Positions 1-32,877 are shown, counted from the stretch's first letter. The stretch is 64,000 nucleotides of DNA from Siphonodentalium dalli (GCA_032622095.1 CP136068.1:56380025-56444024), one strand, 5' to 3'. Made by a program: numbers and translations. The notes: generated from the sequence alone by a model not told the origin.

Positions 1-1258
1 ATAATTCTGCAGATGCGAATAACGTTGAATGGGAAACAGACGCTCTTTATAGAGATGCGTCAAAAACAAACGCTCATTAAATAATCACTTGATTAACCCC
101 CGCCGTGCCTTTGCGGTGATTTGAGATTGGAGAACGGGTGCTCTGAGCTTCTCGAAACCGCGACCACGGTCGTGTCGGTGGGATTTGACACTTACATAGG
201 AAGTTTGAGCTCAATCTTTACACGCGTTTTGGATTCTATGAAGTACACACACACATATATACGAAGTCTCAAAATATATAGTATAGATAGACTAGCAGGT
301 TAGCCCGCCACTGGCGGCATTCGTCCCATGGCTTTGGTCGATCCATTAATTTTAGTTTTTCAATGTAACCCCGTACAGGACCGGGCTACTCAAAAACAAA
401 ATTTCAAGTCGATAGCTCCACCCGTTTCCGAGATCTGGTCTGCGCATGCGCGAATCTGGCGTCGCACGGGCTCGGCGACCCGATAACATTCGTATCCGGG
501 GCAAGATACATTCACATACCAAATTTCAAGTCGATAGCTCCACCCGTTTCCGATATCTCGTCTGCGCATGCGCTGCACGAGCGTCGCACGGGCTCGCCAA
601 TACGACCACCTGGTCAAACTACACTCACGTACCAAGTTTCGTCCCGATCGGTCGAGCTCAATCGGTTAGAGTCTATAAAGGACACACTCATATATATGAC
701 ACTTCCCGTAGGTAGCAAGTTTGAGCTCAATCGGAATTCCCTGGAATTTCCCGTAGATTGGCAGATTCCAGTAGCTTTATAACGGTATATCTGGGGAGAA
801 ATCTGATGCTATATTCGTGATTATGTGGGATGATTTCGGTATATACCGAAGGTATATACTGTAAAAACAAAGCGCGCCATCCGTGCTCGCAGGGAATAAA
901 TTTCGAGCGATAACGTTTGCGTTCCCGTATAATTCTGCAGATGCGAATAACGTTGAATGGGAAACAGACGCTCTTTATAGAGATGCGTCAAAAACAAACG
1001 CTCATTAAATAATCACTTGATTAACCCCCGCCGTGCCTTTGCGGTGATTTGAGATTGGAGAACGGGTGCTCTGAGCTTCTCGAAACCGCGACCACGGTCG
1101 TGTCGGTGTGATTTGACACTTACATAGGAAGTTTGAGCTCAATCTTTACACGCGTTTTGGATTCTATGAAGTACACACACACATATATACGAAGTCTCAA
1201 AATATATAGTATAGATAGACTAGCAGGTTAGCCCGCCACTGGTGGCATTCGTCCCATG
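1..1258. repeat. 928-bp satellite, left side (about 1.4 units)
   Basis: The sequence at position 1 recurs at 929, giving a 928-bp period. The unit holds two similar modules of about 120 bp, each with a TGCGCATGCGCA-type box (about 445 and 565), an inverted TATATACC/GGTATATA hairpin near 838-856, and a junction where a TATAGTATAGATAGACTAG segment leads into a GC-rich head (about 280-316). Short open frames in the unit change between copies and have no coding signature, so I do not call genes here. Confidence 0.9.
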
Positions 1259-1550
1259 GCTTTGTTCGAAAAAGCAATTGCAACAGGTTCCGAGACACTT
1301 GTGCTGCATTTGCAGCAAATTTCGGCAATAGTCAGAAACATGACAATTTTAATTTAATTCTTTGTTTTTCAATGAGTTAATTATTTTGTTTTTCAATGAG
1401 ATAATTGTGCCTTTTTAATTTTTTAATTGAATTTTTTGTTTTTAAATTATACCCGATTTTTTTTTGGTTTTTCAAGGAGTTAATTGTGCCTTTTTAATTT
1501 TGTTTTTCAATTTTACCCGATTTTGTTTTGTTTTTCAATGAACCCGTCCA
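1259..1550. repeat. T-rich degenerate minisatellite
   Basis: Repeated TTTTTCAATGAGTTAATT-like words make up 1340-1545. The mirror block in the right arm (about 9345-9480) is shorter. A third version lies at 15000-15180, next to palindrome 2. Nothing coding is seen. Confidence 0.75.
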
Positions 1551-1797
1551 TGACACTTCCCGTATTTAGCAAGTTTGAGCTCAATCGGTTCGAGTCTATA
1601 AAGGACACACTCATATATATGACACTTCCCGTAGGTAGCAAGTTTGAGCTCAATCGGCATTCCCTGGAATTTCCCAGTCAATATTTAGCAAGTTTGAGCT
1701 CAATCGGTTCGAGTCTATAAAGGACACACTCATATATATATGACACTTCCCGTAGGTAGCAAGTTTGAGCTCAATCGGCATTCCCTGGAATTTCCCA
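1551..1797. repeat. Tandem repeat of about 120 bp (two units)
   Basis: The core AGTTTGAGCTCAATCGG appears four times, alternating with ACACTTCCCGTA and GAGTCTATAAAGGACACAC. The same modules occur in the 928-bp satellite unit (about 660-750), so this is a rearranged piece of satellite. The mirror is at about 9090-9340. Confidence 0.8.
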
Positions 1798-1975
1798 GTC
1801 ACCAACGCGGCGTAATTTTGGTACATATATAGAGACCAATTGTCCATCGGCTGTCATGTGTAGTAAAGATGTCTTATAAGCCGACATTGCCGTGGGGATG
1901 CCCGTTCCTACACGCGTTTTCGATTCTATGAAGTACCCACATATATACACACATACATACACATATATATATATA

Positions 1976-2240
1976 TTCGTATCGGGGGCAAGATACATTC
2001 ACATAGCAAATTTCAAGTCGATAGCTCCACCCGTTTCCGAGATATCGTCTGCGCATGCGCTGCACGGGCGTCACACGGGCTCGCCAATACGACAACGACC
2101 ACCGCCTGGTCAAACTACACACACGTACCAAGTTTCGTCCCGATCGGTCGAGAATCGTATATTTGTATTAATGACAAACAGACAGACAGACAGACAGACA
2201 GAGGTCTTCAAAATATATATGAGATATCTCAAATACTGTA
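1976..2240 (+). mobile_element. RTE/SINE-like 3' tail module
   Basis: The sequence has the layout of an invertebrate RTE/SINE-type tail: CGATAGCTCCACCCGTTTCCG, then ACCAAGTTTCGTCCCGATCGG, then a (CAGA)n run at 2179-2200, then a TTCAAAATATATATGAGATA end. The same layout is seen at 23511-24191 with different bases. The mirror at 8495-8910 carries an extra module of about 128 bp. Family assignment rests on the pattern only. Confidence 0.5.
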
Positions 2241-3312
2241 TGTATATGTATATATACGACCATTAGGGAGAGGAATAGAGTGTGCCTAGCACAGTGTCAT
2301 CCCCGGGCATGACACTATGAGAGGAGCGGCGATACAAGGAAATTCACACAGTACGTTTTTTCGATGAGATATGTCTGTGATTAGTTTTCTCCTGAAATCA
2401 TTTTCAGAGCACTGGTCGTGGCACTGATGGTCGATTCGTGATGTTCACGCCTCACAGTACTGGGAGTGCAGATGGCGAAACAAGCTGACCGATAAAAAAT
2501 GTAACCCCCCCCCCCCGACTGTGTCGAAGTTAATTTAGAGGTCGGCCCACTAACCAACTGGGGTATCCACGTGTTCGGATCTCAATGCAACAACATAATA
2601 TATGCACATTGATCTAAATTAAATATAGGGAGCATATAAACATATATAAATGTATGTATCATATATTTATGTATAAATTCGTATTCAAACAATAAATTAT
2701 CTAGAATGTTATACATGTGTGCAATTGCATTTAGTCGTTCATATTGCAACACCACCCATGCACCCCACATATGTATTATACCGTCGCTTTCACATTCTGG
2801 AGTCAGAAACATCTTTCTGTGAGAATCGATGAGTGTTCAGACCAACTAATAACCGGTCGCATGTTATTGCATCCACGTGCTCCCAGGAGTCTTATTTATC
2901 ATGAAAAAAACGAATGATTTATGCTGCCCAAATTAAATAGCCTTTTGCCCAAATCTTTACAAAATCCGAATCACTCGACCGCTCCGGTGAGAAGTTCAAT
3001 ACCCATTCAGATACATGGCCAAATCAGTACGTAATGCCTGGATTTGTGTTCAATACTCACGATGCCGTACACCGAACTAGAATACTGCAGTACAGTTGTC
3101 CACTGGATACATTAGCACATACTGCCGTAAACCAGATGTTTTTTAATCAGATTTTTTTTAGACCTTTATCCTTTATCCTTCTCTGTAAATTCCTCCTATG
3201 TCAGGAGAACCGTCCTATATATATAGGGTGGACGTGACCACTTCTTCTTGAGCGCATTCTAAATATTGTAGTGTGTCTCACAATCTTCTGATATATGTAC
3301 ATGTAAATATGT
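2241..3312. other. Unassigned arm DNA
   Basis: Holds a C-run at about 2505-2517 (a longer G-run at 8242-8260 in the mirror), an AT-rich stretch at 2582-2820 and a T-rich stretch near 3140-3180. Open frames are short, lack family motifs and are copied in the mirror only because the DNA is. The equivalent in the other arm is 7447-8494. Confidence 0.6.
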
Positions 3313-4075
3313 TTAGATTGGATGAATAGGTGTCAAGTCGGGGTTGAGACCGCCACTAACTGCCGGGGTCCACAGGCGGAGATTTGGGACCAGGTTTCTT
3401 TGCACCAGGATACGAAGTCGGGCTTGTTGAAGTTGATAACCTCTGGATATAGCTTCTATCTTCTGCATGCAGTCATGTGGGACATGGTATATTGAGCATT
3501 CGAGTATTAATTTCAGTAGTTGTTGATTTTGTAAAGACGGGTTCAGACCAACTTGGCTCAGCGTTTCTTTAATTGCGTTTATAAATCGATTTCTGACTTC
3601 ATTGAGACTGTTGCATGATGTTATAAAATGGACCATGTCTTCATGTTCTTTACCGCATAGTTGGCAGATATCTGTGTTGGCAGAGGTAAATTTGGCTTTC
3701 TGCCGTTGGAGAATGTAGGTGGCTGTAGCCATTTTCATTTTGTATGTTGCCTTGGTAGTGGCCAATGGTTCAGAAGCGTCCCAGATTTGATGTACGGAGT
3801 CAGGGGAGTGTCTTGGAGGTTGAGATGCGATAGAGTTGATTTTCCCATGGCTTCCTGTTTCAAAATTTTCATCCAGTGGGAATCTACTGCAGTGTCAACC
3901 ATGGTTTTCCATAAATGTTTTGGAGGAGGTAGTGCTACTGTGTCGTGTGTTGGTGGTAGGTCATACATTTCAGAGAGATTGTTGACTTTAATGAACCAGC
4001 TGTTGGATTTTCCAAATTTGATTGCAAGTTGTCTGGCGGCTAATTGACATTCGATGGAGCCTTGGTTCCGAACTA
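3313..4075 (-). pseudogene. Non-LTR retrotransposon ORF2, C-terminal remnant (left copy)
   Basis: On the minus strand, two overlapping frames (about 4050 to 3735, then 3765 to 3313) read like the end of a LINE ORF2. The second carries a zinc-binding cluster, CQLCGKEHEDMVHFITSC (C-x2-C-x7-H-x4-C), after a TYILQRQKAKF stretch. This layout is typical after the reverse transcriptase domain in many animal LINEs. The endonuclease and reverse transcriptase are absent, so the copy is 5' truncated, and a frameshift separates the frames. It cannot encode a working enzyme. The clade (RTE, CR1 or other) is not resolved. Confidence 0.75.
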
Positions 4076-4399
4076 CATTCCCATAATTATGTTTTCATGG
4101 TTCTCTTATGTACTTCTGCCTCCAGTGGAATAAGACCAAATGTGAGTAGAGCTGCACAGTTGGTTGTTCTTGTATGTAGCTAGGTGCTGTAGACGCTATG
4201 CTGTCTGTACATAAAATGTTTCCAGTTGATGCATCTCCTTCTTGTTAAGGTTTATGACATCTAAACCACACAGTAAGCGACCACATTTTGGTTACATTTA
4301 TGCGGCATTCTATTTTTGTTCATATTTTAACATAATTATGTGATGACTTTTCGCGCGAGTATGCGCCTAAATTGTCAATTGACGAATAAACCTTTCGCT
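4076..4399. other. Unassigned arm DNA
   Basis: Sits just upstream, in element sense, of the truncated LINE copy and may include more of its decayed body. No motif was recognised. The mirror is about 6355-6680. Confidence 0.45.
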
Positions 4400-4980
4400 T
4401 TGTGTCAAAGTGAGATAGCCTTCGTTAACCACAGCATCTCTGCCATGCAAATGCGAAGGTTCGCATTTGGGAAGGTCTCAAAGCCTGATATCTGCATGCA
4501 CCTACTGTAGCATAAAACACTCGTGACTGCTTCCGGTGTCATATAGGTATACAGTGGTAAAGTGCGATTTCTATAAATTCTGGCAAGTTCTGATCGATCG
4601 TAAACTTGGTTTGACGCCAACCGATTGGGAGCGCCAACATCGACATGTATATAGTTGCAATCAAACGGAGTGCGTTAAGGATGATCGCGAATTAAAAAAA
4701 AAATCTCAATTTCAAACAATCAATTTCAAAGGAAAACGCATTATCCTTTATAACCAATTTATGGTATAGTGTTATAGCAACACGTCTTTATCCTCAAAAT
4801 ACGAGAGATATGTTCGAATTATGAAAAAAGTTGTTTAAAAAAAATAAAAACAACCATTTTTCATTATAGACTGTTTGACAGGAAATATTAAAAAAAACAC
4901 ACACATGCACAAACTGCATGATCTAAACTACGAACACAACTATGGTATATATGTGCTCGTCTGCCATCTGAAATCATGAC
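4400..4980. repeat. Inner terminal module of palindrome 1
   Basis: The last part (about 4700-4980) resembles, with substitutions, the sequence at 49250-49490 and the inverted copies at 49757-50503. Shared blocks include TATCCTT(T/C)ATAACCAAT, (T/C)ATAGTGTTATA and ATCTGAAATCATGACTG. The similarity continues past the arm end into the spacer (AGTTTTTTGGCAGCCATTT near 5022). It is thus a dispersed repeat family, not a feature unique to the palindrome. Mirror 5764-6355. Confidence 0.8.
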
Positions 4981-5763
4981 TGTCTGCGATAAATAAATAA
5001 AACATTATTCTTTGCATATTTTAGTTTTTTGGCAGCCATTTTGCAGGACTACACCCAGTTTCACATTCTGCTTCCGACACACAGACCGCCCCTCTCCTGA
5101 ACCCCATCATCGGATCCTCCCGGTGAATATAGACTCTTTACAGAGGAGCGCAGTGATATTTGCGCCCAAATGGAATAGCAAATCCATCGTGCACATTTCT
5201 GTGAACATGCACAACGACAGACAATTCGAGAATTGGCGAATTGGATTCTGGCGTACTATTGTCAAGAACCCAACGCCCAGACCCATCAGACAGATTGATA
5301 GTTACTGTGAAAACAACGAACCGGCCCCTGGCTCCCGACTGGCTTCCAGAGTCCTATTCGAAATCCGCCCCTACCGGGGCCTCCCCGGGGGGTCATACGT
5401 GATTTGAAGTTGGGATGGTGTACAGAATCTGCGGATCGACCAGAACCCAAATTTCCCACTCTACCACCAAGAGACTGGGTTAAGAAAACATCGAACTGGT
5501 TTCTGACTATCAATTGGCTTTCCAGAAAAATATTAAATAGTGTTTCTATGTGTTTTGAGGCAGTGTCACATTCAGCTTCCAACACCCACACCGAACCCCT
5601 CCGAACCCCTCCTCGGAACATCCCGGGGAGAATATAGGCTATACGCAGATGTGGACAGTTAGATTTGCTCCTAAACGGAACAGCAAACCATACGTCACAA
5701 CAACCATTACGTGAATTTGCGAATAGGTTTCTGGCGTAATATTCCGAATCCTGTTCGAAATCC
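4981..5763. repeat. Palindrome 1 spacer with an internal direct repeat
   Basis: Not mirrored. A segment starting near 5052 (CAGTTTCACATTCTGCTTCC) recurs in altered form near 5566 (CAGTGTCACATTCAGCTTCC), and both are followed by a GATCCTCCCGG/ACATCCCGG-type box and a 'gcaaatcc/gcaaacca' segment. Parts match the flanks of the foldback element: 5178-5245 with 39369-39430, and 5275-5325 with 42300-42350. Long open frames cross the region on both strands but lack motifs and follow the GC-rich composition, so I do not call a gene. Confidence 0.7.
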
Positions 5764-6679
5764 GTCATGATTTCAGATGGCAGACGAGCACATATATACC
5801 CTAGTTGTGTTCGTAGTTTAGATCATGCAGTTTGTGCATGTGTGTGTTTTTTTTAATATTTCCTGTCAAACAGACTATTGACCTATAATGAAAAAATGGT
5901 TGTTTTTATTTTTTTTAAACAACTTTTTTCATAATTCGAACATATCTCTCGTATTTTGAGGATAAAGACGTGTTGCTATAACACTATACCATAAATTGGT
6001 TATAAAGGATAATGCGTTTTCCTTTGAAATTGATTGTTTGAAATTGAGATTTTTTTTTTAATTCGCGATCATCCTTAACGCACTCCGTTTGATTGCAACT
6101 ATATACATGTCGATGTTGGCGCTCCCAATCGGTTGGCGTCAAACCAAGTTTACGATCGATCAGAACTTGCCAGAATTTATAGAAATCGCACTTTACCACT
6201 GTATACCTATATGACACCGGAAGCAGTTCGCATCACGAGTGTTTTATGCTACAGTAGGTGCATGCAGATATCAGGCTTTGAGACCTTCCCAAATGCGAAC
6301 CTTCGCATTTGCATGGCAGAGATGCTGTGGTTAACGAAGGCTATCTCACTTTGACACAAAGCGAAAGGTTTATTCGTCAATTGACAATTTAGGCGCATAC
6401 TCGCGCGAAAAGTCATCACATAATTATGTTAAAATATGAACAAAAATAGAATGCCGCATAAATGTAACCAAAATGTGGTCGCTTACTGTGTGGTTTAGAT
6501 GTCATAAACCTTAACAAGAAGGAGATGCATCAACTGGAAACATTTTATGTACAGACAGCATAGCGTCTACAGCACCTAGCTACATACAAGAACAACCAAC
6601 TGTGCAGCTCTACTCACATTTGGTCTTATTCCACTGGAGGCAGAAGTACATAAGAGAACCATGAAAACATAATTATGGG

Positions 6680-7446
6680 AATGTAGTTCGGAACCAAGGC
6701 TCCATCGAATGTCAATTAGCCGCCAGACAACTTGCAATCAAATTTGGAAAATCCAACAGCTGGTTCATTAAAGTCAACAATCTCTCTGAAATGTATGACC
6801 TACCACCAACACACGACACAGTAGCACTACCTCCTCCAAAACATTTATGGAAAACCATGGTTGACACTGCAGTAGATTCCCACTGGATGAAAATTTTGAA
6901 ACAGGAAGCCATGGGAAAATCAACTCTATCGCATCTCAACCTCCAAGACACTCCCCTGACTCCGTACATCAAATCTGGGACGCTTCTGAACCATTGGCCA
7001 CTACCAAGGCAACATACAAAATGAAAATGGCTACAGCCACCTACATTCTCCAACGGCAGAAAGCCAAATTTACCTCTGCCAACACAGATATCTGCCAACT
7101 ATGCGGTAAAGAACATGAAGACATGGTCCATTTTATAACACCATGCAACAGTCTCAATGAAGTCAGAAATCGATTTATAAACGCAATTAAAGAAACGCTG
7201 AGCCAAGTTGGTCTGAACCCGTCTTTACAAAATCAACAACTACTGAAATTAATACTCGAATGCTCAATATACCATGTCCCACATGACTGCATGCAGAAGA
7301 TAGAAGCTATATCCAGAGGTTATCAACTTCAACAAGCCCGACTTCGTATCCTGGTGCAAAGAAACCTGGTCCCAAATCTCCGCCTGTGGACCCCGGCAGT
7401 TAGTGGCGGTCTCAACCCCGACTTGACACCTATTCATCCAATCTAA
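6680..7446 (+). pseudogene. Non-LTR retrotransposon ORF2, C-terminal remnant (right copy)
   Basis: Mirror copy of the fragment at 3313-4075, now on the plus strand. An upstream frame (about 6700-7024, readable from SIECQLAARQLAIKFGKS through YDLPPTHDT) overlaps the zinc-cluster frame 6994-7446, which ends in LTPIHPI and a stop. The cluster reads CQLCGKEHEDMVHFITPC, with Pro in place of Ser in the left copy. The frameshift is shared by both arms, so it predates the inverted duplication or was copied between arms. Confidence 0.75.
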
Positions 7447-8494
7447 ACATATTTACATGTACATATATCAGAAGATTGTGAGACACACTACAATATTTAG
7501 AATGCGCTCAAGAAGAAGTGGTCACGTCCACCCTATATATATAGGACGGTTCTCCTGACATAGGAGGAATTTACAGAGAAGGATAAAGGATAAAGGTCTA
7601 AAAAAAATCTGATTAAAAAACATCTGGTTTACGGCAGTATGTGCTAATGTATCCAGTGGACAACTGTACTGCAGTATTCTAGTTCGGTGTACGGCATCGT
7701 GAGTATTGAACACAAATCCAGGCATTACGTACTGATTTGGCCATGTATCTGAATGGGTATTGAACTTCTCACCGGAGCGGTCGAGTGATTCGGATTTTGT
7801 AAAGATTTGGGCAAAAGGCTATTTAATTTGGGCAGCATAAATCATTCGTTTTTTTCATGATAAATAAGACTCCTGGGAGCACGTGGATGCAATAACATGC
7901 GACCGGTTATTAGTTGGTCTGAACACTCATCGATTCTCACAGAAAGATGTTTCTGACTCCAGAATGTGAAAGCGACGGTATAATACATATGTGGGGTGCA
8001 TGGGTGGTGTTGCAATATGAACGACTAAATGCAATTGCACACATGTATAACATTCTAGATAATTTATTGTTTGAATACGAATTTATACATAAATATATGA
8101 TACATACATTTATATATGTTTTTATGCTCCCTATATTTAATTTAGATCAATGTGCATATATTATGTTGTTGCATTGAGATCCGAACACGTGGATACCCCA
8201 GTTGGTTAGTGGGCCGACCTCTAAATTAACTTCGACACAGTCGGGGGGGGGGGGGGGGGGTTACATTTTTTATCGGTCAGCTTGTTTCGCCATCTGCACT
8301 CCCAGTACTGTGAGGCGTGAACATCACGAATCGACCATCAGTGCCACGACCAGTGCTCTGAAAATGATTTCAGGAGAAAACTAATCACAGACATATCTCA
8401 TCGAAAAAACGTACTGTGTGAATTTCCTTGTATCGCCGCTCCTCTCATAGTGTCATGCCCGGGGATGACACTGTGCTAGGCACACTCTATTCCT
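7447..8494. other. Unassigned arm DNA (mirror of 2241-3312)
   Basis: Mirror of the left-arm stretch. The G-run at 8242-8260 is longer than its C-run partner, an expected replication-slippage or sequencing difference. No gene is recognised. Confidence 0.6.
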
Positions 8495-8910
8495 CTCCCT
8501 AATGGTCGTATATATACATATACATACAGTATTTGAGATATCTCATATATATTTTGAAGACCTCTGTCTGTCTGTCTGTCTGTCTGTTTGTCATTAATAC
8601 AAATATACGATTCTCGACCGATCGGGACGAAACTTGGTACGTGTGTGTAGTTTGACCAGGCGGGGGTCGTTGTCGTATTGGCGAGCCCGTGTGACGCCCG
8701 TGCAGCGCATGCGCAGACGATATCTCGGAAACGGGTGGAGCTATCGACTTGAAATTTGCTATGTGAATGTACCTTGCCCCGGATACGAATTTTATCGGGT
8801 CGCCGAGCCCGTGCGACGCCAGCTTCGCGCATGCGCAGACGAGATCTCGGAAACGGGTGGAGCTATCGACTTGCAATTTGCTATGTGAATGTATCTTGCC
8901 CCCGATACGA
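8495..8910 (-). mobile_element. RTE/SINE-like tail module, with an extra 128-bp unit
   Basis: Mirror of 1976-2240. Two consecutive copies of the 'GGAAACGGGTGGAGCTATCGA' module (about 8725 and 8850) replace the single left-arm copy. This accounts for the 128-base shift in arm pairing. A (TCTG)n run lies at about 8566-8588. Confidence 0.55.
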
Positions 8911-9089
8911 ATATATATATATATGTGTATGTATGTGTGTATATATGTGGGTACTTCATAGAATCGAAAACGCGTGTAGGAACGGGCATCCCCACGGCAA
9001 TGTCGGCTTATAAGACATCTTTACTACACATGACAGCCGATGGACAATTGGTCTCTATATATGTACCAAAATTACGCCGCGTTGGTGAC

Positions 9090-9340
9090 TGGGAAATTCC
9101 AGGGAATGCCGATTGAGCTCAAACTTGCTACCTACGGGAAGTGTCATATATATATGAGTGTGTCCTTTATAGACTCGAACCGATTGAGCTCAAACTTGCT
9201 AAATATTGACTGGGAAATTCCAGGAAATGCCGATTGAGCTCAAACTTGCTACCTACGGGAAGTGTCATATATATGTGTGTGTCCTTTATAGACTCGAACC
9301 GATTGAGCTCAAACTTGCTAAATACGGGAAGTGTCATGGA
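9090..9340. repeat. Tandem repeat of about 120 bp (mirror)
   Basis: Mirror of 1551-1797, with CCGATTGAGCTCAAACTTGC as the repeated core. It leads into the satellite array. Confidence 0.75.
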
Positions 9341-9540
9341 CGGGTTCATTGAAAAACAAAACAAAATGGGGTAAAATTGAAAAACAAAATTAAAAAGGCA
9401 CAATTAACTCCTTGAAAAACCAAAAAAACACATTGAAAAACAAAATAATTAACTCATTGAAAAACAAAAAATAAATTGTCATGTTTCTGACTATTGCCGA
9501 AATTTGCTGCAAATGCAGCACAAGTGTCTCGGAACCTGTT

Positions 9541-12500
9541 GCAATTGCTTTTTCGAACAAAGCCATGGGACGAATGCCGCCAGTGGCGGGCTAACCTGCT
9601 AGTCTATCTATACTATATATTTTGAGACTTCGTATATATGTGTGTGTGTACTTCATAGAATCCAAAACGCGTGTAAAGATTGAGCTCAAACTTCCTATGT
9701 AAGTGTCAAATCCCACCGACACGACCGTGGTCGCGGTTTCGAGAAGCTCAGAGCACCCGTTCTCCAATCTCAAATCACCGCAAAGGCACGGCGGGGGTTA
9801 ATCAAAGTGATTATTTAATGAGCGTTTGTTTTTGACGCATCTCTATAAAGAGCGTCTGTTTCCCATTCAACGTTATTCGCATCTGCAGAATTATACGGGA
9901 ACGCAAACGTTATCGCTCGAAATTTATTCCCTGCGAGCACGGATGGCGCGCTTTGTTTTTACAGTATATACCCTCGGTATATACCGAAATCATCCCACAT
10001 AATCACGAATATAGCATCAGATTTCTCCCCAGATATACCGTTATAAAGCTACTGGAATCTGCCAATCTACGGGAAATTCCAGGGAATGCCGATTGAGCTC
10101 AAACTTGCTACCTACGGGAAGTGTCATATATATGAGTGTGTCCTTTATAGACTCTAACCGATTGAGCTCGACCGATCGGGACGAAACTTGGTACGTGAGT
10201 GTAGTTTGACCAGGTGGTTGTATTGGCGAGCCCGTGCGACGCCCGTGCAGCGCATGCGCAGACGAGATATCGGAAACGGGTGGAGCTATCGACTTGAAAT
10301 TTGGTATGTGAATGTATCTTGCCCCGGATACGAATGTTATCGGGTCGCCGAGCCCGTGCGACGCCAGATTCGCGCATGCGCAGACCAGATCTCGGAAACG
10401 GGTGGAGCTATCGACTTGAAATTTTGTTTTTGAGTAACCCGGTCCTGTACGGGGTTACATTGAAAAACTAAAATTAATGGATCGACCAAAGCCATGGGAC
10501 GAATGCCGCCAGTGGCGGGCTAACCTGCTAGTACTATATATTTTGAGACTTCGTATATATATATGTGTGTATATATGTACTTCATAGAATCCAAAACGCG
10601 TGTAAAGATTGAGCTCAAACTTCCTATGTAAGTGTCAAATCCCACCGACACGACCGTGGTCGCGGTTTAGAGAAGCTCAGAGCACCCGTTCTCCAATCTC
10701 AAATCACCTCAAAGGCACGGCGTGGGTTAATCAAGTGATTATTTAATGAGCGTTTGTTTTTGACGCATCTCTATAAAGAGCGTCTGTTTGCCATTCAACG
10801 TTATTCGCATCTGCAGAATTATACGGGAACGCAAACGTTATCGCTCGAAATTTATTCCCTGCGAGCACGGATGGTGCGCTTTGTTTTTACAGTATATACC
10901 TTCGGTATATACCGAAATCATCCCACATAATCACGAATATAGCATCAGATTTCTCCCCAGATATACCGTTATAAAGCTACTGGAATCTGCCAATCTACGG
11001 GAAATTCCAGGGAATGCCGATTGAGCTCAAACTTGCTACCTACGGGAAGTGTCATATATATGAGTGTGTCCTTTATAGACTCTAACCGATTGAGCTCGAC
11101 CGATCGGGACGAAACTTGGTACGTGAGTGTAGTTTGACCAGGTGGTCGTATTGGCGAGCCCGTGCGACGCCCGTGCAGCGCATGCGCAGACGAGATATCG
11201 GAAACGGGTGGAGCTATCGACTTGAAATTTGGTATGTGAATGTATCTTGCCCCGGATACGAATGTTATCGGGTCGCCGAGCCCGTGCGACACCAGATTCG
11301 CGCATGCGCAGACCAGATCTCGGAAACGGGTGGAGCTATCGACTTGAAATTTTGTTTTTGAGTAGCCCGGTCCTGTACGGGGTTACATTGAAAAACTAAA
11401 ATTAATGGATCGACCAAAGCCATGGGACGAATGCCGCCAGTGGCGGGCTAACCTGCTAGTCTATCTATACTATATATTTTGAGACTTCGTATATATGTGT
11501 GTGTGTACTTCATAGAATCCAAAACGCGTGTAAAGATTGAGCTCAAACTTCCTATGTAAGTGTCAAATCCCACCGACACGACCGTGGTCGCGGTTTCGAG
11601 AAGCTCAGAGCACCCGTTCTCCAATCTCAAATCACCGCAAAGGCACGGCGGGGGTTAATCAAGTGATTATTTAATGAGCGTTTGTTTTTGACGCATCTCT
11701 ATAAAGAGCGTCTGTTTCCCATTCAACGTTATTCGCATCTGCAGAATTATACGGGAACGCAAACGTTATCGCTCGAAATTTATTCCCTGCGAGCACGGAT
11801 GGCGCGCTTTGTTTTTACAGTATATACCCTCGGTATATACCGAAATCATCCCACATAATCACGAATATAGCATCAGATTTCTCCCCAGATATACCGTTAT
11901 AAAGCTACTGGAATCTGCCAATCTACGGGAAATTCCAGGGAATGCCGATTGAGCTCAAACTTGCTACCTACGGGAAGTGTCATATATATGAGTGTGTCCT
12001 TTATAGACTCTAACCGATTGAGCTCGACCGATCGGGACGAAACTTGGTACGTGAGTGTAGTTTGACCAGGTGGTCGTATTGGCGAGCCCGTGCGACGCCC
12101 GTGCAGCGCATGCGCAGACGAGATATCGGAAACGGGTGGAGCTATCGACTTGAAATTTGGTATGTGAATGTATCTTGCCCCGGATACGAATGTTATCGGG
12201 TCGCCGAGCCCGTGCGACGCCAGATTCGCGCATGCGCAGACCAGATCTCGGAAACGGGTGGAGCTATCGACTTGAAATTTTTTTTTTGAGTAACCCGGTC
12301 CTGTACGGGGTTACATTGAAAAACTAAAATTAATGGATCGACCAAATCCATGGGACGAATGCCGCCAGTGGCGGGCTAACCTGCTAGTACTATATATTTT
12401 GAGACTTCGTATATATATATGTGTGTATATATGTACTTCATAGAATCCAAAACGCGTGTAAAGATTGAGCTCAAACTTCCTATGTAAGTGTCAAATCACA

Positions 12501-16494: not shown

Positions 16495-16529
16495 AAATAT
16501 ATCTTATTTTTATGCTAAGATAATTGCGT

Positions 16530-20527: not shown

Positions 20528-20760
20528 ATGTGAGGTTTAATAATAACTCCATATATCTACATAACCAATACAAGGATGTGAGGTTTAATGATAACTCCAT
20601 CTACATAACCAATATAAGGATGTGAGGTTTAATGATAACTTCATCTACATACCAGTATCCAATTTTAGGATGTGAGGTTTAATGATATAAACTCCATCTA
20701 CATAACCGATATAAGGATGTGAGGTTTAATGATAACTCCATCCACATAACTAATAAATAT
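20528..20760. repeat. 44-bp minisatellite (unit 2, left arm)
   Basis: Five copies, one of which is altered around CAGTATCCAATTTTAGG. The mirror array has four copies. Confidence 0.88.
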
Positions 20761-21837: not shown

Positions 21838-22070
21838 TGATGTGAGGTTTAATAATAACTCCATATATCTACATAACCAATACAAGGATGTGAGGTTTAA
21901 TGATAACTCCATCTACATAACCAATATAAGGATGTGAGGTTTAATGATAACTTCATCTACATACCAGTATCCAATTTTAGGATGTGAGGTTTATTGATAT
22001 AAACTCCATCTACATAACCGATATAAGGATGTGAGGTTTAATGATAACTCCATCCACATAACTAATAAAT
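21838..22070. repeat. 44-bp minisatellite (unit 3, left arm)
   Basis: Same array and same altered copy as unit 2, showing that units 2 and 3 are closer to each other than to unit 1. Confidence 0.88.
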
Positions 22071-22580
22071 ATGAGTGAAATAAAACAAGTCAACTGGCTA
22101 AAAATGAAATTCCCTGCAATTTGAATTTATACACAATTTGGTGTGACCCCCGCCCCCCAAATGTCCTGTCTCTTTGTGTGTACATGTCTATCCGTCTAAA
22201 TTGCTAGAAATGAAATTCCCTGCAATTGGTATTTTAGACGATTTTTTGTGACCCCAAATGTCCTGTATGTGTATCTGACACACTTTATGCAACTTTAGAC
22301 ATATTTTGGGAAAATCCATGATGGCATTCAATATGGTCGTGGGTGGGAAAGAACGGGAGCGACGATTATTTTAGGCCACACATGTCCTGTCTGTCTGGTA
22401 TTTATGTATGTCTATTTCTGACATACTTCATTCTATTTTACGCACATTTTTGGCAATTTGGCGGGAGGGACGGAACGGGGGGCGACAGCTTCGACGCCGA
22501 CTGTATTTTACCTCTGGCTGTCGCAGGGTGTTGCTGGTCTTTGGAACTTTGAAGCTCAAAGATTGCGTGGGGGTCTTTGC

Positions 22581-23159
22581 GCGATACATACATGTAATAC
22601 ATACATGTAAGATGCCACACAGGCACAAAAACTTTATTGCTGCAACACGGATGCGAAAAGGTTAAAGGTGCTCAATCTGATTCGATAGTGCCCCCCATAT
22701 AATCGGATTCAAAAAAGATTTTTACAAATGCCACTTCGGTTATCAATTGATTAATTGCTAAAAAATATTCCTAAGCACTGTACTATAGTACAAAATTGCC
22801 TGAAAGGTGTTATTTATCAACATGTTGTTCGGTGAAATTTGGCCTTATTATCCACATAAAGCCTCTTCATTTTATTTATCCATCTTCATTCGCAATTTGG
22901 TCCGATATCAGCAACTTGTCAACTAGGGGAGGCCAAATTCACATTTGATAACCAATTACGCCTAAAAGCTTCAGCGTAATTCAGATTTCCATTACACTTA
23001 AGTTTAATAGCATTGCAATTTAGCATAATTCAAATTCCATATTTCAAAACTCTCATGGAGCTGAAATAGAAGCAGCCAATTACTGATGCTAGTAACTTTT
23101 AATATATATCTATACCTTAGATGATACCATTATATGTAAGGTAGTAAGTCTGAAAACCT
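22581..23159. other. Single-copy-looking inner arm DNA
   Basis: AT-rich. No coding or repeat feature was recognised apart from the mirror at 24697-25275. A nine-base ACATACATG pair lies near 22587-22610. Confidence 0.5.
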
Positions 23160-23260
23160 ATTACGTTTAAGCATAATGGCACTACACTTAAGCGTAGTAG
23201 AGTTGTGAGTGAGGTTATTATGCTTAAGTATAAGTGTATTACGCTTAAGCATAATTAACT
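23160..23260. repeat. Cluster of short GCTTAAGC palindromes (left)
   Basis: TTACGTTTAAGCATAATGG, ACACTTAAGCGTAGTAG, TTATGCTTAAGTATAAG and TTACGCTTAAGCATAATT are near-palindromic words about 25-30 bp apart, at the inner edge of the arm. Weaker versions lie at 22960-23030. A similar cluster lies at 48833-49115. Confidence 0.75.
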
Positions 23261-24615
23261 ATTACAATTTAATTTGTCCTCCCATAGTCGGCTGCTTATT
23301 CGGTCACTAATAATTCTCAATCGTGACAAACAACAGATTATTAAAATCAATCTGATACTTAAGATCGGTTATTTGGCTCGAATCAAATAGTGTTGACCAT
23401 CAAATAAATATAAATTGAGGGCCGTTTAATCCGATTATCTATTTTAAAGCACTATCGATTATCAAACCTGAAATTTTTCCAAAAAACCCCCCAAATATAT
23501 AAATATAAACTAGCAGGTGGACCCGACTTCGTCCGGGCTGTTTCCCCTCTGCTTTTCGGCGAATTGCGCGATTTGACCTTGAATTGTCCATTTTGAAGGT
23601 CAAGGTCAGGTGGGGTCACGATTTGACCTGTCCAAAACACTGCCCGGACAAAAGTACCCGACAAAAGTACCCGTCGAAATCCATCCGGTATTACCCGATT
23701 TGACCTAGAATTGATCATTCTGAAGGTCAAGGACAGGTCGGGGTCACGATTCGACCCATCCAAAACACTCAGTGGACAAAGGTAACTCCACGTATCAAGT
23801 TTCGTCGAAATCCCATCAAACTTCGCGATTTTGACCTTGAATTGACCCGATTTCAAGGTCAATGTCACGTCGCACGGGCAAATGAATAGGCTTACGACAC
23901 TCCCCATACGACAGTATCCCGAGACACAAATTTTCATCGAAATCCCGTGATACTCGGGCGTTCGACCTTGAAATGACCCGATTTCAAGGTCAAGGTCGCG
24001 TCGCACGGGCAAATTAACAGGCCCATGCCACTCCACGGCCGAAAGTACACCCACATACCAAGTTTCATCGAAATCGGCTCGGCCGTTTTCGAGTCCACCC
24101 GAACACACAGACAGACACACACACACACACGCACACCCTCACACACCCCACACACATACACACACAGATTTCCCAAAATATATAATAGATAAACAACTTT
24201 TAAGTTACAATGTGCATACTGTATTTGCTAAACAAGCTAGATAAAACATAATAATTGGTACTTTTCACACCCAAAACTACCAACGTATCCCAATTTTAAC
24301 ACTTTAACTCAATCTGTCTTTAGATTCAATATAAATATTTGACATTTCCACAATGAAATATATCATCGATATATAACAACCAGACCAGATGACAGGCAGA
24401 TAACACACAGATTATCTCGATTACACCAATATGTCTAACTCAGCCAAGCGACCACCCCTCTGATTTGATTAATAACTGAGAAAGCATACATATCCACTAC
24501 AAGTTATCTCTTTACAACAATATCATTTACAATAGTGTCCATGGCCCTCTGACTGGGCAAACCTTTTTCATTCATTGTCGACACATTTGAAAATCAACAT
24601 TCCACTTTGTTCCGA
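23241..24615. other. Palindrome 2 spacer
   Basis: 1375 bp not mirrored. It holds the RTE/SINE-like element (23511-24191) flanked by AT-rich DNA (23261-23510 and 24192-24615) in which nothing else was recognised. Confidence 0.8.
23511..24191 (+). mobile_element. RTE/SINE-like non-autonomous element
   Basis: The head reads CTAGCAGGTGGACCCGACTT, followed by a CGTCCGGGCTG box. The middle has about four tandem modules of 110-130 bp, each with TTCAAGGTCAAGGTC or a variant and 'cgaaatccc'. The end reads CCAAGTTTCATCGAAATCGG, CGGCCGTTTTCGAG, a CA/CAGA microsatellite (24100-24165) and CCAAAATATATAATAGATA. This head, tail and microsatellite layout is shared by many animal RTE-derived tails. A 224-codon minus frame crosses the modules, but it is periodic and antisense to the element, so it is not called as a gene. 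Confidence 0.6.
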
Positions 24616-24619
24616 TATA

Positions 24620-24700
24620 CACTTATATTTAAGCATAATAACCTCACTCACAACTCTACTACGCTTAAGTGTAGTGCCATTATGCTTAAACGTAATAGGT
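24620..24700. repeat. Cluster of short GCTTAAGC palindromes (right)
   Basis: Mirror of 23160-23240, right at the inner edge of the right arm. Confidence 0.75.
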
Positions 24701-25275
24701 TTTCAGACTTACTACCTTACATATAATGGTATCATCTAAGGTATAGATATATATTAAAAGTTACTAGCATCAGTAATTGGCTGCTTCTATTTCAGCTCCA
24801 TGAGAGTTTTGAAATATGGAATTTGAATTATGCTAAATTGCAATGCTATTAAACTTAAGTGTAATGGAAATCTGAATTACGCTGAAGCTTTTAGGCGTAA
24901 TTGGTTATCAAATGTGAATTTGGCCTCCCCTAGTTGACAAGTTGCTGATATCGGACCAAATTGCGAATGAAGATGGATAAATAAAATGAAGAGGCTTTAT
25001 GTGGATAATAAGGCCAAATTTCACCGAACAACATGTTGATAAATAACACCTTTCAGGCAATTTTGTACTATAGTACAGTGCTTAGGAATATTTTTTAGCA
25101 ATTAATCAATTGATAACCGAAGTGGCATTTGTAAAAATCTTTTTTGAATCCGATTATATGGGGGGCACTATCGAATCAGATTGAGCACCTTTAACCTTTT
25201 CGCATCCGTGTTGCAGCAATAAAGTTTTTGTGCCTGTGTGGCATCTTACATGTATGTATTACATGTATGTATCGC

Positions 25276-28200
25276 GCAAAGACCCCCACGCAATCTTTGA
25301 GCTTCAAAGTTCCAAAGACCAGCAACACCCTGCGACAGCCAGAGGTAAAATACAGTCGGCGTCGAAGCTGTCGCCCCCGTTCCGTCCCTCCCGCCAAATT
25401 GCCAAAAATGTGCGTAAAATAGAATGAAGTATGTCAGAAATAGACATACATAAATACCAGACAGACAGGACATGTGTGGCCAAAAATAATCGTCGCTCCC
25501 GTTCTTTCCCACCCACGACCATATTGAATGCCATCATGGATTTTCCCAAAATATGTCTAAAGTTGCATAAAGTGTGTCAGATACACATACAGGACATTTG
25601 GGGTCACAAAAAATCGTCTAAAATACCAATTGCAGGGAATTTCATTTCTAGCAATTTAGACGGATAGACATGTACACACAAAGAGACAGGACATTTGGGG
25701 GGCGGGGGGTCACAACAAATTGTGTATAAATTCAAATTGCAGGGAATTTCATTTTTAGCCAGTTGACTTGTTTTATTTCACTCATATTTATTAGTTATGT
25801 GGATGGAGTTATCATTAAACCTCACATCCTTATATCGGTTATGTAGATGGAGTTTATATCATTAAACCTCACATCCTAAAATTGGATACTGGTATGTAGA
25901 TGAAGTTATCATTAAACCTCACATCCTTATATTGGTTATGTAGATGGAGTTATCATTAAACCTCACATCCTTGTATTGGTTATGTAGATATATGGAGTTA
26001 TTATTAAACCTCACATCAGTGTATTTGGGGATTTGGACAGGGACCTTGATTTGGGACTATTCTTTCTTTGTGTTTGAACAAGTTCACCTCACAGATGCGA
26101 GTTCACATATCTTCCTGTACAAACATTTCCTATGTAGCCGTGTTTTCATCTGTTTTTCTCAGAAAATGCAAGCTTGTAGTGCGTTTACAGTTCGCGATGT
26201 CTGGTGTGTACCATATGCAGCTGAACTTGGTATGTTCAAGCCTAAGTACCAATAAATTGGGGGGGGGGTAGGGTGTGCTATATTGGGAATTAGGAGTTCA
26301 TACCGATGAAATGATATTAATTAGCAGAGCGATAACGACCAATGTTGACCTATAATGCATCGCAACTGTAGTACTGTACTGTTGCACCAAAGCTATAAAA
26401 TGGGGGGGATCACGATCTGAATTATCTCTAGAGATGGTGCCAGAATTCTATAGTAATTGATGGGACGTATATAGTAATCTTTCACGACATAATTGTCACC
26501 AATAAAAACATCTATTTCATCGTGGAAGTTAGTCGGTGATTATAAATATTTTGTCAATAATTGAAATTTGGGTAGCATTCCACACCCCCCCCAAGACCCC
26601 CACGCCATATTTGAGCTTCAAAGTTCCAAAGACCAGCAACACCCTGCGACAACCACAGGTAAAATACAGTCGGCGTCGAAGCTGTCGCCCCCGTTCCGTC
26701 CCTCCCACCAAATTGCCAAAAATGTGCGTAAAATAGCATGAAGTATGTCATAAATAGACATACATAAATACCAGATAGACAGGGCATGTGTGGCCTAAGA
26801 TAATCGTCGCTCCCGTTCTTTCCCACCCACGACCATATTGGATGCCATCATGGATTTTCCCAAAATATGTCTAAAGTTGCATAAAGTGTGTCAGATACAC
26901 ATACAGGACATTTGGGGTCACAAAAAATCGTCTAAAATACCAATTGCAGGGAATTTCATTTCTAGCAATTTAGACGGATAGACATGTACACACAAAGAGA
27001 CAGGACATTTGGGGGGTGGGGGGTCACAACAAATTGTGTATAAATTCAAATTGCAGGGAATTTCATTTTTAGCCAGTTGACTTGTTTTATTTCACTCATA
27101 TTTATTAGTTATGTGGATGGAGTTATCATTAAACCTCACATCCTTATATCGGTTATGTAGATGGAGTTTATATCATTAAACCTCACATCCTAAAATTGGA
27201 TACTGGTATGTAGATGAAGTTATCATTAAACCTCACATCCTTGTATTGGTTATGTAGATATATGGAGTTATTATTAAACCTCACATCAGTGTATTTGGGG
27301 ATTTAGACAGGGACCTTGATTTGGGACCATTCTTTCTTTGTGTTTGAACAAGTTCACCTCACAGATGCGAGTTCACATATCTTCCTGTACAAACATTTCC
27401 TATGTAGCCGTGTTTCCATCTGTTTTTCTCAGAAAATGCAAGCTTGTAGTGCGTTTACAGTTCGCGATGTCTGGTGTGTACCATATTCAGCTGAACTTGG
27501 TATGTTCAAGCCTAAGTACCAATAAATGGAGGGGGGGTAGGGTGTGCTATATGGGGAATTAGGAGTTCATACCGATGAAATGATATTAATTAGCAGAGCG
27601 ATAACGACCAATGTTGACCTATAATGCATCGCAACTGTAGTACTGTACTGTTGCACCAAAGCTATAAAATGGGGGGATCACGATCTGAATTATCTCTAGA
27701 GATGGTGCCAGAATTCTATAGTAATTGATGGGACGTATATAGTAATCTTTCACGACATAATTGTCACCAATAAAAACATCTATTTCATCGTGGAAGTTAG
27801 TCGGTGATTATAAATATTTTGTCAATAATTGAAATTTGGGTAGCATTCCACACCCCCCCCCCAAGACCCCCACGCCATATTTGAGCTTCAAAGTTCCAAA
27901 GACCAGCAACACCCTGCGACAACCACAGGTAAAATACAATCGGCGTCGAAGCTGTCGCCCCCGTTCCGTCCCTCCCACCAAATTGCCAAAAATGTGCGTA
28001 AAATAGCAAGAAGTATGTCAGAAATAGACATACATAAATACCAGATAGACAGGGCATGTGTGGACTAAGATAATCGTCGCTCCCGTTCTTTCCCACCCAC
28101 GACCATATTGGATGCCATCATGGATTTTCCCAAAATATGCCTAAAGTTGCATAAAGTGTGTCAGACACACATACAGGACATTTGGGGTCTCAAAATATCG

Positions 28201-29150
28201 TCTAAAATACCAATTGCAGGGAATTTCATTTCTAGCAATTTAGACGGATAGACATACATACAAAGAGACAGGACATTTGGGGGGGGGGGCACAACAAACT
28301 GTGTATATATTCAAATTGCATGGAATTAATTTTTAGTCAGTTGACTTGTTTTAATTCACTCATATTTATTAGTTATGTGGATGGAGTTATCATTAAACCT
28401 CACATCCTTATATCGGTTATGTAGATCGAGTTTATATCATTAAACCTCACATCCTTATATTGGTTATGTAGATGGAGTTATCATTACACCTCACATCCTT
28501 ATATTGGTTATGTAGATGGAGTTATCATTAAACCTCACATCCTTGTTTTGGTTATGTAGATATATAGAGTTATCATTAAACCTCACATCAGTGGATTTGG
28601 GGATTTGGACAGGGACCTTGATTTGGGACCTATCTTTCTTTGTTTTTGAACAAGTTCACCTCACATATCTTCCTGTACAAACATTTCCTATGTAGCCGTG
28701 TTTTTCTCAGAAGCTTGAAGCGCGTTTACATTTCGCGATGTCTGGTGTGTACCATATGCAGTGGAACTTGGTATGTTCAAGCCTAAGTACCGATAAATTG
28801 GGGAGGGGGGGGGGGGTAGGATGGGCTATATGGGGAATTAAGAGTTCATATAGATGAAATGATATTAATTAGCAGAGCGATAACGACCAATGTTGACCTA
28901 TAATGCATCGCAACTGTAGAACTGTACTGTTGCACCAAAGCTATAAAATGGGGGGGGGGGGGTCACGATCTGAATTATCTCTAGAGATGGTGCCAGAATT
29001 CTATAGTAATTGATGGGACATATATAGTAATCTTTCACGACATAATTGTCACCAATAAAAACATATCTATTTCATTGTGGAAGTTAGTCGGTGATTATAA
29101 ATATTTTGTCAATAATTGAAATTTGGGTAGCACTCCACAACCCCCCCCCC
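25276..29150. repeat. Tandem 1.3-kb units, three copies (right arm)
   Basis: Mirror of 18700-22580. G-runs at 26259-26267, 28803-28816 and 28948-28960 and C-runs at 27852-27862 and 29142-29155 differ in length from their partners. Arrays of the 44-bp minisatellite lie at 25786-26017, 27098-27290 (one unit short) and 28366-28590. Confidence 0.9.
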
Positions 29151-29900
29151 CCCCCAAGGCACAGGCCAGAATTTTGCCCCACCCGATACCCATCAGATTT
29201 GATAATAAATTGAAATTAGAGCAGCACTCCACCCCCAAGGCACAGGCCAGACTCTTGCCCCACACCGATACCCTTCAGAATAAATATTAATCAGTAAATT
29301 AATTAAAATGAGCTAAAATTTCACATTTTCTTTAGAAAATTTACATTTTTATCTCTCGCGACATAATTGTCACCAATAAAAACAAATTTGATTCATCGTG
29401 GAAGTTAGTCGGTGAATATAAATAATGTCACCATTCAACTGAATGTTGTTGAGAATATTTCAACCAATTTTGGAAGTTTAAATGAATATTTTCTTCACAC
29501 GCCAAGTAAAATTGACAAATTTCAGGATTGTAGGCTTCATTGCGACCAAAAATTGTTGTGCACACTCAAGGAACGTCTACCATCACTCAATAGGCCAAAT
29601 TATGCCGTGGCCATGCTATAAACTAGCTTGAAATTGGCAAAACAACGAATTTTTTTTGGTTGAAAAAATTAACATGGGAACATGATCTCCATAGAGAATG
29701 GTTATATTTCGATAAAAACGAAAAAAATGCGAAATGAAAGTCGGCACTCGTCAGAATGGTGCAGAATAACATACGAGTCATGTTACATGCGAAAATTTGA
29801 CCTCATTCGATTAATTAGTCTCGTAATTAAGGAATCAATGGCGCTCGGACATGTGGAATTCCGTCGCAGACTGTACACGGCAGACCAATTGTGAAATGTA

Positions 29901-30439
29901 AACACGCATCAAATTTACCTTTTGTGGGAATAACACACTTAGCGCAACCTTGATCAAAGTAATGCAATACACAACAACAAATAGAACAAGAAACGATTGT
30001 TGCCCAAAAACCATGTCTACATCCCCATTTACAACACCGTGAAATTGGTCGCGAACATATCGGATGTGGAAAATATTGTTAAACAGGTATAAATTTTCGG
30101 GCAAATGATAATGTCCAAGATATCCAGTGTTTGAATTTAGAATGTCCCTATGTACACTTTGAACTAACTGCGAATACAAAATCGTTCCCTGTTCTAACAG
30201 TCCATCCAAATAATATGCATCAATGTTCACAAGTTGATCATTTTGGTTTTTGATCGTTGATCTGGCCAGATGAAAAAAAATAACAATGCTACCAAAGCAA
30301 TTGCTGTACACTGAACACCATTAAAAGGTGAAAACTGTTGGCAGCCCTGGTGTAAATTTGCCCTCACAGCTCTGACCATGCCCGATGGACCATGGTGATA
30401 CAGTACACCAATATGATTAAGAAAGTGATCGGAAAGCAA
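29901..30439 (-). pseudogene. Cysteine-protease-like ORF of transposon type, frameshifted (right copy)
   Basis: Mirror of 17317-17855 on the minus strand, with the same two frames, the same QCTAIALVALL block and the same homopolymer break (A8 at 30273-30280 on the plus strand). No amino-acid difference was noticed between copies in the readable parts. Confidence 0.45.
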
Positions 30440-31261
30440 TAAAATATTATTATCAGTATAACAAATAGTGAATGGAGAAATATTCGTTAAAAGAAAAGGA
30501 TTTATTTGGAATTTGCATTATTTTGATTTGTAAATGTAAATCGCGAAAGAAAAATCCGACAGTCCAGTAATTTGAGTAAATTTAGCAATCGCAGAAAATG
30601 GCAACACGCCAACAGAACAAAGCGTCTTTGAAATATGCGATTATACAAACCAACTTCGCAGGTGCGGTGGATATTTGCAGAACTGCTGATCTTACCATTG
30701 TGTTATCAACACAAAATTAACAATTATTGATCAAATAACATCGCCATTATAAATTAAATCAATGAAAGAAGTCAATAGAAATTGCTCTGCCTCTGGACTA
30801 ATAAAAAAATGGCGACGTCTTCATCGAATTCTGCGCATGCGCAAGAAACTTCCAAATAAGGAGTTTCCATATAAGGAAACGGCAATCCCGATAATTACCA
30901 AGCAATACTTTTAACACAAAAGTCAGAAATATTGTTTCATGATCTAACTATGGACCTGATAATTATCGAAATATGTAGGCGAAATAAATTTTAAATAGTT
31001 AATCATATCCATTTAGACATCAACACACTCTTAACGACACAATACACCAACATGCAATGCTGTTATTTAACTGCGTCGGTGTTTATTGTCATCAATGGCT
31101 TATTGCTTCGTTTATAGTAAGACCCTTGTATATGTTCTGCGCATGCGCAAGTCAATTTCCATATTTGGAATCTCCATATATGGGATTTGTGTTAACCGCA
31201 ATACCGATGAAACCCTAACAAATACCACGCAATTATCTTAGCATAAAAATAAGATATATTT
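30440..31261. repeat. Mirror of 16495-17316, with two TGCGCATGCGCA boxes
   Basis: Contains TTCTGCGCATGCGCAAG at 30831 and 31136. Part of it (31015-31130: ACATCAACACACTCTTAA... to GTAAGACCCT) has a diverged direct relative at 39068-39178. Confidence 0.65.
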
Positions 31262-31399
31262 AAGAAATAAATACACGGTGTAGAGGTGTGTATGGTCAAG
31301 TTGTACCACAAAAAACTGTAGCGTAGCGTAGCGGAGTCCTACAATCAATTTTGTGGTACAACTTGAACATACACACCGATACACCGTGTATTTATTTCT
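31262..31399. repeat. Hairpin element, arms about 55 bp (right copy)
   Basis: Mirror of 16357-16494. The stem words CACGGTGTA and GTGGTACAA(C)TTG are intact. Confidence 0.85.
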
Positions 31400-31953
31400 T
31401 TTGTAATACGACTGAAAGTTTCTGGTCATAATTCGACTCAATAGTCAACGAAATACTGCGCTTTTTCGGTCTCAGGTGAGAAAACATTTCGTGGTGTAAT
31501 TCTTATTGGGCGTACTCGATTTCTTTGCACGGAGTACTCTGGTAATTTGGTTGCGTAAATAATCGTTGTGATTGGCTAAAAAAGGATGTGTTTTCAGCGG
31601 CGCCCGTGCCTTTCATTTAAATTGTACATGTAACACGATTGCGGTCATTCCATTCACTCCTGGACTCTCAGTGAAGACAGTCGCACAAAATCTTTTCTCC
31701 AGTCAACAGCAATCTACATATCTAACGCCTACAGTTCTTCTCTACATCCGTATCGTATCTCTTTGTTCTCATTTCGCACCTCTGCGCCCGCACCTGGCAT
31801 TTTTCACACCTCGCTCGAGTTCCATTGTAACGTTGCAACGCCTTATACCACAATTAACATAGGGTCTTTTGTTTAGTGAGCTGACACCGCAAGCTCCAAC
31901 TTCAATTTTTTACAACTTTGTCACCGAATTTGACCAATACAGTTACGAGCAAA
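31400..31953 (+). promoter_or_regulatory. Upstream region of the retrotransposon (probable 5' UTR)
   Basis: Lies directly upstream of ORF1 and is duplicated in the left arm. Its GC content rises locally (about 31590-31830). Promoter function is inferred from position only. An open frame (31572-31862) ends before ORF1, has no motif and is not called. Confidence 0.3.
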
Positions 31954-32784
31954 ATGGATCCAATCCATGAAGATCCCATATTTATATCGTTAAAGGACCA
32001 ATTTGATCAACTACTACAAAAAATGGACCGAAACGAGAAAGCGCACGCGTACCAAATGGCCGAGATGCGAAAATCGCACAAGGAAGAAATGGCAAATAAC
32101 ACAAAACAAATGGAAAATTTAAGAAAGGATAACGCAATAATTAACGCAAATAACGCAAAACAAATGGAAATTTTGATAAATACAATTGGAGAATCCGGAG
32201 GAAAAAACAAGAAAGAGAAAGAAAGCAAGAAGAAAATCTCAACCGACAAAGGAAAGGGTAAGCAACCTATTCCAAAACGCACCTGCACCACACCCAAACC
32301 TGCATCAAAGCCAGCCCCAAAAATAAATCAATCAATTAGCAAATCAGCCAAACGTACCTGCACCAAACCCAGCACTCTCCCGGATTTTCAACCATCAACG
32401 AGCGCTATCGATTTCAACCCAGCCACTCCAAACTTCAGTTCAAAACAAATGTCCCCCTTAAATAGCCCTACAAGCAGAACTTCATCCCCCAAAGACAATA
32501 CGAGCATGGATTATACAAAACAAGCCTCTGATTCCTTTGCTATCATTGATAAGGAAGATGCCAACCCTATCGCGTGGAATCTTAAAACTAATAGCAAACG
32601 AACAAAGAGGAAATTGGACAATGAATTCGAAAGCAGTAACAAAAACCCACGATTCAACAATAGCCAGCCCAGTCAAAGTCATAGTCAAAGATTATCCCTC
32701 ACAACAGGTCAACCTATTCAAAAACTAACCCTTTTCGCAGAAAATGCTACATCCGACATGAAAAATAGCCCATTTTTTCTTTAA
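31954..32784 (+). CDS. Jockey-type retrotransposon ORF1 (gag-like), truncated
   Basis: 276 codons from ATG 31954. Residues about 10-70 are charged and helical (DQLLQKMDRNEKAHAYQMAE), likely a coiled coil. Residues 80-150 are rich in Lys, Pro, Ser and Thr, and the rest is Ser/Asn-rich and low in complexity. Such ORF1 proteins bind element RNA. The CCHC knuckles usual in Jockey gag proteins are missing, and the RRM-like domain is found only after the stop, in another frame (from 32878), so the protein is cut short. The palindrome edge falls at codon 151 (32405). Upstream TTG-initiated reading is open for 12 codons, but ATG is chosen. Confidence 0.7.
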   Translation: MDPIHEDPIFISLKDQFDQLLQKMDRNEKAHAYQMAEMRKSHKEEMANNTKQMENLRKDNAIINANNAKQMEILINTIGESGGKNKKEKESKKKISTDKGKGKQPIPKRTCTTPKPASKPAPKINQSISKSAKRTCTKPSTLPDFQPSTSAIDFNPATPNFSSKQMSPLNSPTSRTSSPKDNTSMDYTKQASDSFAIIDKEDANPIAWNLKTNSKRTKRKLDNEFESSNKNPRFNNSQPSQSHSQRLSLTTGQPIQKLTLFAENATSDMKNSPFFL

Positions 32785-32877
32785 AAAATCGTGAAAGATC
32801 AAAACTTTGAAATCCAATAGACAAAAAGTGGAAACCTATTAATATATCCAAGCGACATTAAGACAAAATTATATTTC

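Follow-up and report, generated by a model that had tools for sequence, protein, structure and literature searches.

Why does one chromosome carry two giant palindromes side by side, each with its own spacer? The question is raised by a window of 64,000 nucleotides from Siphonodentalium dalli (C8:56,380,025-56,444,024; "the window" means this whole stretch). The assembly comprises 2.23 Gb and has nine long contigs, and the host chromosome, with 190 Mb, is the smallest of the nine. In addition, 20 kb of upstream DNA was analysed, positions of which are given as negative numbers, and no runs of N are found across the 84 kb examined. To our knowledge, fold-back scars are known in cancers and birth disorders, and a matched pair has rarely been seen in an ordinary genome.

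Two abutting palindromes

Self-comparison of the sequence revealed two inverted repeats, P1 centred at 4981-5763 and P2 centred at 23240-24616, so that the two side-by-side giant palindromes of the original prediction are indeed present. The P1 left arm extends from -9706 to 4980 on the plus strand (1-4980 in the window; its start is C8:56370318), and the right arm, its inverted copy on the minus strand, covers 5764-15347. P1 had been given arms of at least 5 kb; the palindrome is real, but a size of about 5 kb is too small, as the arms measure 14.7 kb on the left and 9.6 kb on the right when the upstream DNA is included. The left arm carries an extra 4.3-kb LINE, located at about -9165 to -4831 (L009/L010) and missing from the right arm, which has an open 897-aa frame of an endonuclease-reverse transcriptase-like protein. 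A target duplication at this LINE was considered and rejected: a 10-bp target deletion is found instead. Both arms of P1 harbor a tandem array of 928-bp units, in the right arm at 9553-14700 and in the left arm at 1-1269, continuing upstream to about -3454 on the minus strand, inverted relative to the right array.

The P2 arms, expected to be about 7.8 kb, are found at 15348-23239 (plus strand) and 24617-32404 (minus strand). In the left arm, a truncated piece of a LINE ORF1 precedes a repeat element that has three tandem units of 1.3 kb; the right arm is the mate of the left. Most of the P2 arm is a repeat element that is present elsewhere in the genome. This element, at 15348-24618, is dispersed, and each of its about three internal tandem units contains a 44-bp minisatellite; the solo copies differ in unit number. 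The satellite proposed as a separator of the two palindromes turned out to be the outer part of the P1 right arm, and P1 and P2 abut at 15347/15348, where the two inverted copies are joined directly to each other. Host genes were not recognised in the arms. Outside the palindromes, a single open frame of 358 aa at 43110-44186 resembles a 7tm_7 chemosensory receptor (E 2e-5, slightly below the curated cut-off), which would suit an arthropod or a different invertebrate.

Arms of kilobase length with more than 99% identity cannot be a product of chance. Long inverted repeats as such are not rare in this genome, since one comparable long inverted repeat, a transposon at C5:30.0 Mb, turned up in a control of 130 kb from other parts of the genome, made up of ten arbitrarily placed pieces of 10 kb, two pieces of upstream DNA, and the locus of one element. 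Both inverted termini of this foldback-type transposon (C5:30,001,734-30,008,809; L041:1734-8809) contain tandem arrays with a 527-bp unit; GGTGTGACTAAACACC is terminal, and the element is bordered by a 9-bp direct repeat, CGCTTCGTG. Copies of its ends are present at dozens of loci, frequently arranged as facing pairs with about 1.7-7.8 kb between them, and the element resembles the Drosophila FB elements.

Genome-wide, near-identical copies number two for the P1 core arm and two for the P2 arm, and each spacer is found once. A third copy of either arm was not found in the genome search, which scores the best candidates only but would place a third copy of such similarity among its highest-scoring hits, and the region from -20000 to -10480 contains nothing repeated in the window. 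The suggestion of an amplified region is therefore not upheld, each arm being present just twice. Linkage to a sex chromosome likewise gains no support from the sequence.

Spacers and the three joints

The P1 spacer (4981-5763, 783 bp, plus strand) is composed of a LINE 3′ end and a diverged satellite. The P1 left arm ends in the apparent last codons and the A-rich tail of this LINE, which passes into the spacer, and the second part of the spacer is a diverged form of a satellite arrayed on other chromosomes. The P2 spacer (23240-24616, about 1375-1377 bp, plus strand) continues the left-arm element, in which a dispersed repeat of 668 bp is nested (23510-24177). For four solo copies of the element, the alignment crosses 23239, enters the spacer, passes over the 668-bp repeat, and reaches 24618. 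Because these copies cross 23239 and then differ past 24618, the P2 left arm together with the spacer represents the old order. The inner edge of the P2 arm was also considered as a transposon terminus, which was rejected as the solo copies extend past 23239 into the spacer. In both palindromes, comparison with related copies shows the spacer to be the ancestral continuation of the left arm. The description of the spacers as unrelated single-copy sequences holds in that each whole spacer occurs once in the genome, and fails in that both continue repeat DNA.

The far ends of the spacers were compared with the same related copies. At the P1 fold-back joint (J1, 5761-5764), satellite copies elsewhere read CCGTC followed by CATCCC, whereas the window reads CCGTC followed by ATGATTTC, with a 3-bp microhomology, GTC. 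At the P2 fold-back joint (J3, 24615-24618), the four solo copies read CCGATAT followed by TCGAACGA or CCGATAC followed by TCGAAAGA, whereas the window reads CCGATAT followed by ACACTT, with a 2-bp microhomology, AT. Past J3, the solo copies continue with TCGAACGATC or a close variant of it, one copy having TCGAAAGATC, and the window re-enters the arm. These comparisons mark the end of the P1 spacer and 24616/24617 as new joints, at which the right arm is attached to the far end of the spacer. By chance, a microhomology of 3 bp or more at J1 together with one of 2 bp or more at J3 would be met in about 1.6% of cases in this sequence. Each palindrome has a single-copy spacer continuous with one arm and a short inverted microhomology at the joint between the spacer and the inverted arm; the right arms restart, reversed, 783 bp (P1) or 1375 bp (P2) back from the turn. 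Breakage-fusion, one of the origins named in the original prediction, is supported in the sense of breakage and fold-back: a spacer that runs on from the left arm, met by a reversed right arm at a microhomology of 2-3 bp, is a signature of fold-back inverted duplication.

The third joint is different. At J2 (15347-15348), the P1 right arm stops in an (AT)n tract, where a satellite unit has its edge, and is followed without microhomology by the P2 left arm, which begins inside the LINE ORF1. The 168-bp sequence at 15180-15347 is identical at nine or more other genomic places, the matches always ending at (AT)n, and the unit whose edge lies at 15347 terminates at (AT)n at dozens of further sites. 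The unit ending there seems to sit on, or to insert at, (AT)n, and its parts compose the 928-bp array. With no microhomology and the edge of a dispersed repeat unit, J2 may have its own history. On the other side of P2, a LINE at 31885-35800 (plus strand) leaves the right arm uninterrupted across the palindrome edge, and its left-arm mate is cut at 15348. A second near-identical copy of the LINE remainder was found neither in the genome near this place nor in the 20 kb upstream, so the left LINE copy is truly cut at 15348.

Divergence and age of the arms

The P1 core arms (1975-4980 against 5764-8790) differ by 11 substitutions in 3522 bp (0.31%) and the P2 arms by 26 substitutions in 7778 bp (0.33%), which amounts to equal divergence (Fisher p = 1.0). 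The differences between arms that had been listed, namely substitutions, a module, and a 44-bp minisatellite unit, were all verified, with the module measuring 122 bp, not 128 bp; a 60-bp insertion is a further difference. The argument drawn from them against an adapter artefact is sound as far as they exclude a palindrome read from one molecule, but a fold made of two haplotypes is still compatible with them.

Recurrent arm-to-arm gene conversion as a cause of the similarity is not supported by these arms. Mirrored units of the two 928-bp arrays of P1 are no closer to each other than to other units; the left units alternate in one pattern, and the right ones bear a variant absent from the left. 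The arrays have diverged separately and the 4.3-kb LINE is in one arm only, so a recent duplication suffices for the arm identity. Conversion tracts were not seen when the two arms were compared with each other. The P1 arms thus evolve apart, and youth is enough to account for their identity. If an insect-like mutation rate near 2.8e-9 is assumed, a divergence of about 0.32% would place the event at roughly 0.6 million generations ago. Equal divergence could also be expected from two haplotypes, or from two unrelated young events.

Origin of the pair and known systems

From the arms and the LINE, P1 folds and keeps the left side of the chromosome, and P2 the right side. The two palindromes thus have opposite polarity, as they would when facing one break, and they are of the same age (0.31% and 0.33%, p = 1.0), both as expected of reciprocal fold-backs. 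We lean towards the view that two fold-back inverted duplications with opposite polarities, P1 and P2, most likely arose together, one on each side of a single break. There is about an even chance that the locus has survived in the germline from a single break after which each end folded back and the folded copies were rejoined. The chromosome would have broken between the P1 and P2 loci, leaving two resected ends; through replication or folding back, each end would have become fused to its sister, the spacer representing the stagger between the ends. The folded copies would then have broken, one in the (AT)n tract and the other in the LINE, and joined each other. A lone fold-back would give a dicentric or acentric chromosome, and an opposite-polarity pair would give a normal monocentric one; probably, the palindromes are found paired because only such a pair restores a normal chromosome. 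This scheme takes P1 and P2 to have arisen together from loci that were adjacent before, through one initial break, and the assembly to be correct at the locus. The sequence expected between the two spacers is absent from the assembly. A single copying tract with three template switches would lead to the same product as a break with two fold-backs.

Other origins were weighed against the same structure. Two independent fold-back duplications of similar age might have been united by a later rearrangement at 15347/15348; J1 and J3 are each complete alone, and the joint between P1 and P2 lies in (AT)n without microhomology, as such a history would allow. It is nevertheless unlikely, as the equal divergence, the abutment, the opposite polarity, and the one shared joint would all be coincidences, and a fold-back by itself would not be expected to persist on a monocentric chromosome unless it were repaired further. 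Or the palindromes may exist on no chromosome, the arms being two haplotypes placed head to head in the assembly via chimeric reads. The 0.3% divergence, the LINE in one arm, and the differing array variants are indeed haplotype-like, but this fold is quite improbable: two chimeric joints within 19 kb, each at a fixed position and with a short microhomology, and a third joint besides would be needed, random chimeras share no breakpoint, no N runs interrupt the 84 kb, and the LINE is cut at 15348 without a mate on the left.

The remaining explanations concern the arms as copies. An inverted triplication or its remnant (ODIRA or DUP-TRP/INV-DUP) yields paired fold-back joints of opposite polarity, and secondary deletion can enlarge the spacers (PMC10766186). 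It predicts three copies of the arm and, on the far side of P1, a repeat of the right flank, against two arm copies found and no such flank from -20000 to -10480; as a third arm copy is missing, the triplication was disfavoured and is very unlikely. A palindromic transposon of the Foldback type, or a giant insertion of P1 into the P2 left arm, has in its favour that the genome possesses a foldback element with tandem arrays in inverted termini, and that the outer edge of P1 coincides with the edge of a unit dispersed in the genome. The arms occur nowhere else, though; 15348 and 32404 show neither a terminal motif nor a target duplication, with the LINE running through, and the missing part of the LINE is absent from the 10 kb left of P1 and has no second near-identical copy. 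The insertion was rejected because the remaining LINE is not on the left, and the palindromic transposon because the genuine one on C5 differs in copy number, termini, and flanks; the chance left to this explanation is slight. That each arm is found only twice in the genome speaks against the triplication and the palindromic transposon alike. Finally, old palindromes could have been kept alike by arm-to-arm gene conversion, and palindromes of sex chromosomes typically combine highly identical arms with unrelated flanks (PMC3723533). This is hardly tenable here: array units show no closer similarity to their mirror counterparts, the one-arm LINE insertion and the modules persist, and no host gene was recognised in the arms.

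If the reciprocal origin is true, fold-backs of the kind known from cancers also remodel chromosomes in the course of evolution, and palindromes of ordinary genomes may tend to arise as side-by-side pairs, as pairs alone restore a monocentric chromosome. If confirmed, the locus would be a natural and dated reciprocal fold-back pair with all three joints readable at the base level. Interstitial fold-back palindromes in long-read assemblies are then predicted to be adjacent pairs of opposite polarity and equal age.

Several known systems share parts of this structure. Palindromes of mammalian sex chromosomes also have long arms of more than 99% identity and a unique spacer, whereas in P1 and P2 no genes were recognised in the arms and there is no sign of maintained identity. 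Inverted triplications formed by ODIRA are alike in having paired palindromic joints at one locus, but three copies are expected there and two are found here (PMC10766186). In yeast, foldback inversions are formed via large-loop hairpins with loops of up to thousands of nucleotides, and products with multiple fold-backs occur; the stems are mostly at least 4 bp, compared with 2-3 bp here (PMC7467729).

Closer cases come from human cells. Fusion of replicated, resected sister ends leaves breakpoints that lie parallel, with distances of 429 and 2,059 bp in one example (PMC12807874). When breakage-replication-fusion yields two opposite-polarity joints from one break, these are called "reciprocal foldbacks", and 23 cases were found in human cancers (PMC12807874). 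The present pair is similar in its opposite-polarity joints and its parallel breakpoints, which are spaced by hundreds of bp up to 2 kb. Unlike those cases, it is found in a reference assembly, has an estimated age of hundreds of thousands of generations, and has its folded copies joined, the breakpoints of the gap being not recoverable (PMC12807874). Human fold-back duplications have spacers of 766-70,466 bp and microhomologies of 2-8 bp (PMC3907307). The order of arm, unduplicated (disomic) spacer, and inverted arm, the spacer size, and the inverted microhomology of 2-3 bp are all alike in the window, but the outcome in humans is a terminal deletion, a translocation, or a ring, while here both sides of the chromosome are kept and two palindromes are present (PMC3907307).
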